A DNA stretch of 53,651 bases from Parvularculales bacterium. Its GTDB lineage: Bacteria; Pseudomonadota; Alphaproteobacteria; JAPOUT01; JBAJNM01. The position numbers and the translations under genes were made by a program. The stretch's first letter is position 1; each line of letters begins with the position of its first letter. Under the pieces are notes generated by a model, which worked only from the letters and a program-made list of their open reading frames with translations, was not told where the DNA came from and ran no database searches. The stretch covers positions 1-53,651 of the forward strand of contig JBAJNM010000010.1 of assembly GCA_036881865.1 (NCBI GenBank). Direction: 5' to 3'. Shown here piece after piece: positions 1 through 1,620 of the stretch.

Positions 1-343
1 CTCATGGCCCTTATGGGCTGGGCTACACACGTGCTACAATGGCGGCGACAGAGGGTTGCAATCCCGCGAGGGTCAGCTAATCCCCAAAAGCCGTCTCAGT
101 TCGGATTGTACTCTGCAACTCGAGTGCATGAAGTCGGAATCGCTAGTAATCGCAGAACATCATGCTGCGGTGAATACGTTCCCGGGCCTTGTACACACCG
201 CCCGTCACACCATGGGAGTTGGTTTTACCCGAAGACGGTGCGCTAACCCGCAAGGGAGGCAGCCGGCCACGGTAAGGTCAGCGACTGGGGTGAAGTCGTA
301 ACAAGGTAGCCGTAGGGGAACCTGCGGCTGGATCACCTCCTTT
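1..343 (+). rRNA. rrs: 16S ribosomal RNA, 3' portion (5' end outside window)
   Basis: The sequence contains the conserved 3' landmarks of bacterial 16S rRNA in order: GGCTACACACGTGCTACAAT near 22-41, the TTGTACACACCGCCCGTC decoding-site segment near 189-206, GTCGTAACAAGGTAGCC near 296-312, and the terminal GGATCACCTCC anti-Shine-Dalgarno region at 330-340. The window begins at about E. coli position 1200, so only the last fifth of the gene is present. The exact 3' end is set by analogy to other 16S molecules. A tRNA-Ile follows on the same strand, as in a normal alphaproteobacterial rrn operon, but no 23S gene comes after it (see findings). Confidence 0.97.
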
Positions 344-584
344 CTAAGGATGCGAAGACATGGAGTAATCCTGTCTTCCATAATCATTGGAACAAAAGTG
401 TTTGAGCAACAGATTTCATCTCTGCTCAAGCATACCTATCAAGCCGAATGCCGCCGTCTTCGTTTCTCTTCATTTATGGGTTATATGATTTTCTTATGTG
501 ATCTACCGCGCTCTATATCAGGTGATATGTTACGTACGCGGTGCTTTTACATACTTATGTTATGTTGCGCCTGCATTGTAATGA
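344..584 (+). other. 16S to tRNA-Ile spacer
   Basis: This 241-base spacer lies between the 16S 3' end and tRNA-Ile. I see no convincing protein-coding region in it; the reading frames that cross it have no ribosome-binding site and run into the rRNA or tRNA. It presumably holds the processing stem and antitermination sequences of the rRNA transcript, but I could not identify a specific boxA. Confidence 0.6.
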
Positions 585-661
585 AGGGCGGTAGCTCAGC
601 TGGTTAGAGCGCAGCCCTGATAAGGCTGAGGTCGGCGGTTCGAGTCCGCCCCGCCCTACCA
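585..661 (+). tRNA. tRNA-Ile (anticodon GAT)
   Basis: This is a full cloverleaf of 77 nt. The acceptor arm AGGGCGG pairs with CCGCCCT and CCA is encoded. The D-arm contains GCTCAGCTGGTTAGAGC, the anticodon arm is CCCTGATAAGG with GAT in the loop, and the T-arm has GGTTCGAGTCC. Its place directly after 16S matches the standard rrn spacer tRNA-Ile. The next gene downstream is protein coding rather than tRNA-Ala, which is unusual. Confidence 0.96.
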
Positions 662-814
662 CTCACCTCACATTTTTCTCTTTTTGACTCTCTTCTCTGT
701 TATGAATAAACCCGCCCATCTGCTTTGTGCAGGGTGAGAGGATTGGTTGATTTTTCATCAATATGCAGGTATGATGGTTTGGTATTTTTGCCTGTGAGAT
801 GGAGTGTTGCGATT

Positions 815-1369
815 ATGGCGTTTAACCCAAGCGTTTTTGTTTTATTGAGTGCCCTGCTCTTTTTTGTTGCCGCTTGCGGCGGTGGTCCGGAGATAGGTGA
901 ATCCCTCTATAGGTCAGGTGAGGTGGGTGTCGCCAAAGCGGTGCAGCGATGCCGTGTACTTGAAGTACGTGAGATTTTCATCCGCGATGATAATGCTGAA
1001 AAGGAGGGTCAGGCGCTCGGAGGGCTTGCCGGTGGCATCTTAGGAAGTGTCGCTGGCCGCTCTGTCGGTAGCGGCTCGGGTCAGGATATTGCATCGACGG
1101 GAAGCGCGATAGCAGGAGTTCTTGGCGGTGCACTTGTAGGTGAGGCTGTTGGCAAGGCTAGAGGAACGCGTAAGGGATTGGAGTATTCCATACTGACTGA
1201 CAATGGTCAGGAGATTACTTTTACACAGGAGTTTCTGGAAGGAGACAGGATTGTGCAGGCCGGTGAGACGTGTCGTTTGCAGGTTGCCGATAATCGCAAT
1301 CGGGTTTTGCCCTCAGAGCAGTTGCCCGAGACTGTTCAGAGGCCAAAGACAACTACATTTGCCCCCTAA
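815..1369 (+). CDS. Glycine-zipper outer-membrane lipoprotein (SlyB / 17-kDa antigen type)
   Basis: The 184-residue product begins with a lipoprotein signal: a short N-region, a hydrophobic stretch, then FVAACGGG with the lipidated Cys at about residue 21. A central glycine-zipper segment (about residues 65-115) has repeated GxxxG spacing (GGLAGGILGSVAG, GVLGGALVGEAVG), as in Rick_17kDa_Anti and SlyB family proteins. It is followed by a short C-terminal beta-rich segment. Such proteins sit in the outer membrane and are linked to envelope integrity; the precise role here is inferred. The ATG at 815 is preferred over an upstream frame extension because a GGAG lies 10 bases before it and the signal peptide starts there. 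The odd point is the location: the gene sits between tRNA-Ile and tRNA-Ala of a split rRNA operon. Confidence 0.8.
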   Translation: MAFNPSVFVLLSALLFFVAACGGGPEIGESLYRSGEVGVAKAVQRCRVLEVREIFIRDDNAEKEGQALGGLAGGILGSVAGRSVGSGSGQDIASTGSAIAGVLGGALVGEAVGKARGTRKGLEYSILTDNGQEITFTQEFLEGDRIVQAGETCRLQVADNRNRVLPSEQLPETVQRPKTTTFAP

Positions 1370-1478
1370 TTATTTTGCGTCCCAAGCCACTTTGAAAATA
1401 CCTAATTTGTGTTTTCAATAAGATTAGGTTGGGTTTGTGATTGTGCTTTGCCTGTCGTAGACTGCGTTGTAGCGCTGA

Positions 1479-1554
1479 GGGGCCGTAGCTCAGTTGGGAG
1501 AGCGCCGGCTTTGCAAGCCGGAGGTCGTCGGTTCGATCCCGTCCGGCTCCACCA
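1479..1554 (+). tRNA. tRNA-Ala (anticodon TGC)
   Basis: This is a 76-nt cloverleaf. The acceptor arm GGGGCCG pairs with CGGCTCC, CCA is encoded, the anticodon loop in GGCTTTGCAAGCC gives TGC, and the T-arm has GGTTCGATCCC. It is the second tRNA normally found in the 16S-23S spacer, here separated from tRNA-Ile by about 820 bases that include a protein gene. Downstream is metX, not 23S rRNA. Confidence 0.96.
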
Positions 1555-1620
1555 CTGTGTCGAATTTCACCAAGAATGATAAAAAAACCGATAACGTAAT
1601 CTAACATGAAAGGATGCGCT

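Follow-up and report, generated by a model that had tools for sequence, protein, structure and literature searches.

A 16S rRNA locus without adjoining 23S and 5S genes in an alphaproteobacterium and the likely break-up of the rRNA operon in its order

The window, i.e., the whole stretch of 53,651 bases analysed here, is the complete contig C10 of assembly G000 (2.33 Mb in 89 contigs, 50% GC, completeness 98.7%, contamination 3.0%). It opens inside a 16S rRNA gene, of which only the last 343 bases are included, and the following features were found at this end of the contig.

1..343, + strand: 3' end of the 16S rRNA gene, truncated by the contig start (16S model 1192-1533, 341 bits)
445..472, + strand: 3' arm of a putative pre-16S processing stem (score 41), able to pair with the leader of the 16S on contig C23 (L001 1212-1239)
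585..661, + strand: tRNA-Ile (GAT), the first spacer tRNA
815..1369, + strand: glycine-zipper lipoprotein-like gene between the spacer tRNAs, with a paralog at G000:C54:9034-9585(-)
1479..1554, + strand: tRNA-Ala (TGC), the second spacer tRNA, after which the 23S comes next in linked operons
1555..1620, no strand: gap where the 23S-5S half is absent; the metX start codon at 1621 is 66 bases beyond tRNA-Ala (51 for the ATG at 1606)
1621..2805, + strand: metX, the present neighbour of the spacer tRNA (NCBIfam PRK00175, 562 bits)
2802..3410, + strand: metW, the end of the same-strand run, with a minus-strand ORF (3364-4227) next

The initial annotation had read this locus as 16S, tRNA-Ile, a protein gene, tRNA-Ala and metX with no 23S or 5S to follow, and cmscan-type matches bore this order out. 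No LSU or 5S match at or above the Rfam gathering score was present in the 53,651 bases, of which 53,308 (53.3 kb) lie downstream of the 16S. The two large rRNA genes are regarded as unlinked when the distance between 16S and 23S is >1500 bp (section 2.4 of PMC7761764), and no same-strand 23S occurs within 1500 bp after the 16S of the window. An ordinary operon would have its 23S ~350 bases from tRNA-Ala; at this locus metX stands 51-66 bases after it. Farther on, the plus-strand run is broken by minus-strand ORFs (3364-4227, 5349-6107 and others), so that no single transcript could extend to a more distant 23S. Intrinsic terminators and promoters in the spacers were no more numerous than in shuffled sequences.

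For comparison of linkage within the class, 12 genomes were chosen either by match to the 16S piece or by membership of the same order, and both genes were found in eight of them; G002, G003, G027 and G057, which lacked a match for 16S, 23S or both, were left out of the count. Another 13 near-complete genomes of the class searched for 23S contributed none to it. Seven of the eight genomes were linked and one (G001) was unlinked. The gap between 16S and 23S measured 194-823 bases in the linked controls (G017, G019, G020, G031 with two operons, G033, G036 and G044), and the 23S started 293-348 bases after tRNA-Ala in G017, G019 and G044. A conserved neighbourhood of tRNA-Ala and metX was also considered and rejected: in 80 metX loci from other alphaproteobacteria, viewed with flanks from some hundred bases up to 10 kb, neither 16S nor tRNA-Ile nor tRNA-Ala stood beside the gene. 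The position of metX next to tRNA-Ala is therefore taken as a product of the break.

The product of the ORF in the tRNA spacer is 184 residues long, has a lipobox-like VAAC and a segment rich in glycine, and is weakly similar to lipoproteins of the glycine-zipper type (NCBIfam PRK11280, E 3e-5, below the cut-off; Pfam Rick_17kDa_Anti, E 0.08). The gene shares 84% DNA and 86% protein identity with its paralog on C54, the longest exact match being 35 bases. With dN 0.081 and dS 0.428 between them, both copies are under constraint, and the spacer ORF thus looks like a genuine gene kept by purifying selection. The same-order genomes G001-G003 yielded no close copy, which suggests that the gene either entered this spacer once the families had diverged or has been lost from other lineages. 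As for direct repeats that could betray the insertion, only one 9-base match was found. The contig of the paralog (L129 1-14472) has 45% GC and several ankyrin-repeat-like ORFs recognised by eye.

The initial annotation had taken the insertion between the two tRNAs as a fossil of the break point. A protein gene does sit there, in agreement with the idea that the insertion itself split the operon. However, tRNA-Ala comes after the insert in ancestral order and strand, yet no 23S comes after tRNA-Ala, and so the spacer gene did not cause the separation of the 23S. Moreover, in G001 the insert lies between 16S and tRNA-Ile while tRNA-Ala is elsewhere, indicating that inserts and the break before the 23S were separate events. 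A split by this insertion is hardly plausible, and because the order of the tRNAs is intact, the break is placed after tRNA-Ala instead.

The 5' part of a 16S gene (model 1-661) forms the end of another contig of the same assembly, G000:C23 (28661-29297). Its leader and the spacer of the window contain 28-base pairing arms with a score of 41, the best of 200 shuffles being 30, and these arms sit at the usual position of the pre-16S processing stem. Because of the matching arms, the pieces on C23 and C10 are very probably one 16S gene, with ~530 bases of it unassembled. Upstream of the 16S, C23 has the promoter-like sequence TTGACA-17-TATAAA, which agrees with the consensus at 11 of 12 bases, and downstream of this site stands TTCTTTGACA, similar to the boxA-like leader of alphaproteobacterial operons. 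C23 enters the 16S by 637 bases and C10 by 343, both from unique flanks, and this depth of entry would fit a single-copy gene. One 5' piece and one 3' piece were found in the assembly, the genome search having known misses, and the 16S of the window is likely the sole copy of the genome.

These data also bear on the possibility of a mixed genome, in which an orphan 16S locus would exist here together with a second, ordinary 16S-tRNA-23S-5S operon that was unassembled or unbinned. Genomes of this type exist (270 of 15,521 complete genomes according to PMC7761764), multi-copy operons often do not assemble, and 23S and 5S are absent from the bin. Nevertheless, contigs should break at the edges of a multi-copy repeat and not run 637 and 343 bases into it; apart from the two in the window, the assembly gave no full-length tRNA-Ile(GAT) or tRNA-Ala(TGC) match; and the relative G001 has one 16S match and one 23S match. 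A mixed genome is accordingly rather unlikely.

The sole LSU match in the assembly was on contig C34, which was rejected as the carrier of a bacterial 23S on account of its 24 tRNAs, respiratory-chain genes, TGA at Trp positions in the COX1 frame and SSU at both ends. C34 (L004 1-19573) is a contaminating mitochondrial genome, circular by the SSU at both contig ends, with LSU, SSU, COX1, ND1, ND2, ND5 and other respiratory genes and TGA read as Trp (gene names by eye). Its gene set and gene order recall, as far as we can judge, a sponge mitochondrion. Automatic annotation would take the LSU of this contig for the 23S of the bacterium. The 23S of G001 used as a DNA query against the assembly gave nothing beyond the match on C34, and the genome search gave no 5S; these are weak negatives, as the search also missed the 343-base 16S piece of the window itself and yielded no 23S for seven of the 13 near-complete genomes of the class. 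The 20 smallest contigs (of 89) contain no rRNA genes, bacterial 23S and 5S included, the remaining contigs being covered by the genome search alone. With 10,232 bases in its smallest contig, the bin appears to have been cut at 10 kb, so that a 23S on any contig below this size would drop out; such a size cut-off can explain the absence of the bacterial 23S and 5S.

The order of this bacterium is represented here by four genomes (G000-G003). G001 is a single contig of 1.73 Mb, in which the rRNA genes were located as follows.

645016-646529, + strand: 16S, one match
811382-814729, + strand: 23S, one match
837524-837639, - strand: 5S, one match

Thus, 164,852 bases separate 16S from 23S, and the 5S lies ~23 kb from the 23S on the opposite strand. 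In G001, cmscan applied to 16 kb surrounding the 16S and 14 kb surrounding the 23S revealed no other rRNA gene and no 5S. Its tRNA-Ile follows the 16S at 2.67 kb with three ORFs in between, two of them methyltransferase-like, and tRNA-Ala(TGC) is found at 628 kb on the opposite strand. This one-contig relative with three separate rRNA loci is the strongest backing for the earlier proposal that the rRNA genes are unlinked. The accompanying check, to locate 23S and 5S elsewhere in the genome, succeeded for G001 and failed in G000, where only the mitochondrial LSU came to light.

The 16S and 23S of G001 each have a promoter-like site, and the leader CGCTCTTTCTCAYCGTGAA is common to both, with 21 of 24 bases alike. 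The complementary flanks of the 16S scored 46, compared with at most 31 in shuffled sequences. For the 23S, the best pair of flanks scored 35 (at most 32 in shuffles) but falls inside a G/C-run repeat, and the pair immediately adjoining the gene at both ends scored 31. An interspersed repeat is also common to the two leaders, and therefore not every likeness between them is functional.

No assembled rRNA was found in G002 and G003. Their contigs G002:C75 (L127 1-55) and G003:C44 (L128 12468-12522) break at the identical base inside tRNA-Ala(TGC), which is followed by a 3-hydroxyisobutyrate-dehydrogenase-like gene (by eye) and not by a 23S; the absent side of these contigs probably holds 16S and tRNA-Ile. 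That both break within tRNA-Ala marks a hard spot for assemblers, and the assembly of the window is a fragmented metagenomic one with 3% contamination and a mitochondrial contig. Such features would suit an assembly chimera, i.e., a true operon running on into a 23S and a false join at tRNA-Ile/lipoprotein or at tRNA-Ala/metX. However, the repeats found at the junctions in G000 are limited to the 84% paralog with its 35-base exact match and to distant tRNA-Ala genes (81-82%), the ancestral order and strand are kept on either side of the insert, and the same decoupling is seen in the single contig of G001. The chance of a chimera is slim, and to judge from the sequences, an ordinary operon cut by misassembly would be an unlikely origin of this locus.

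The preferred reading, to which we give a probability of roughly 0.8, is that the window contains a 16S-only rRNA locus, that the rRNA operon has come apart in this alphaproteobacterial order, and that the 23S-5S part of G000 lies elsewhere and dropped out during assembly or binning. We regard the split as very likely real and common to the order. The 53 kb without a 23S, together with the arrangement in G001, suggest that 23S and 5S of the window's bacterium occupy other loci. We infer the order of events as follows. Linkage would have been lost 3' of tRNA-Ala in the ancestor of the order; in the lineage of the window, the 23S-5S half would have left from just 3' of tRNA-Ala and metX-metW would have been placed there. 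A duplicate of the lipoprotein gene may have entered the spacer between tRNA-Ile and tRNA-Ala before or after this departure. Spacers no longer held short could take up genes, such as the lipoprotein gene here and the methyltransferase genes in G001. The 16S would be transcribed from its own rrn-type promoter (on C23) and excised by the pre-16S stem, with the two tRNAs kept downstream, and 16S and 23S would then rely on separate promoters. Separate transcription of each rRNA is suggested by the stems and the promoter-like sites.

A more far-reaching reading is that this is an order outside Rickettsiales wholly devoid of an rRNA operon, with 16S, 23S, 5S and both spacer tRNAs separate as seen in G001 and the 23S preceded by an rrn-type promoter and a boxA-like leader of its own. 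In this view the window would be an intermediate from which only 23S-5S has gone. This is offered tentatively, as its chance falls somewhat short of even.

The locus is another case of the known kind of unlinked rRNA genes, of which the three-way split in G001 is a more extreme form. According to section 3 of PMC7761764, 574 of 15,521 complete genomes were unlinked and 413 of these 574 belonged to symbionts; PMC2688493 lists atypical operons in 38 host-dependent versus five free-living bacteria. In the literature, unlinked rRNA genes are tied to host dependence and slow growth. Complete scattering of 16S, 23S and 5S is called very unusual in bacteria in PMC8172020. The Rickettsiales (Wolbachia, Rickettsia) are likewise Alphaproteobacteria with 16S apart from 23S, and in Wolbachia 16S and 23S-5S are described as separate transcription units (PMC7761764). 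However, they keep 23S and 5S together, whereas G001 does not; the order of the window, with only four genomes, should not be Rickettsiales by group size; and its bacterium, unlike them, has a genome of 2.33 Mb with 50% GC and possesses amino-acid pathways. Buchnera aphidicola similarly has a 16S transcription unit with ORFs and without 23S (same source), but it belongs to another class, has a strongly reduced genome and has kept the 23S-5S pair (according to a title cited in PMC8172020). Whole clades of CPR bacteria have 16S, and sometimes 23S and 5S, apart, with protein genes in the spacers (PMC8172020); they are unrelated and have far smaller genomes, whereas the window's bacterium retains both spacer tRNAs after the 16S. 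A published report of such an alphaproteobacterial order was not found in a search mainly of openly available literature.

The initial annotation had associated the decoupling with slow growth or genome reduction. The locus itself does not demonstrate either: the genome has 2.33 Mb and 50% GC, and the window carries pathway genes for methionine, arginine and lysine. A host-associated bacterium would fit the mitochondrial genome in the bin and the ankyrin-repeat-like proteins on C54 (by eye). These results would extend the list of lineages lacking an rRNA operon by an order of alphaproteobacteria that is probably host-associated and that includes one genome in which the 5S is separate as well. 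As the related genomes are at different stages of break-up, the sequence in which the 23S leaves, spacers fill and tRNAs move could be traced. Surveys based on 16S-ITS-23S amplicons would overlook these bacteria.

A SAM-alpha riboswitch (window 46317-46395, 66 bits) precedes an O-succinylhomoserine sulfhydrylase gene (46453-47715), and metX at 1621 is without one. In G001, a palindromic G/C-run repeat (GGGGGGATTCCCCCC type) occurs in many copies before rRNA and protein genes (L126, L134), and the 23S contains an insert of ~580 bases with 35-base complementary ends (94%) at G001:C1:812561-813152 (L134 6562-7153), which resembles the intervening sequences excised by RNase III.
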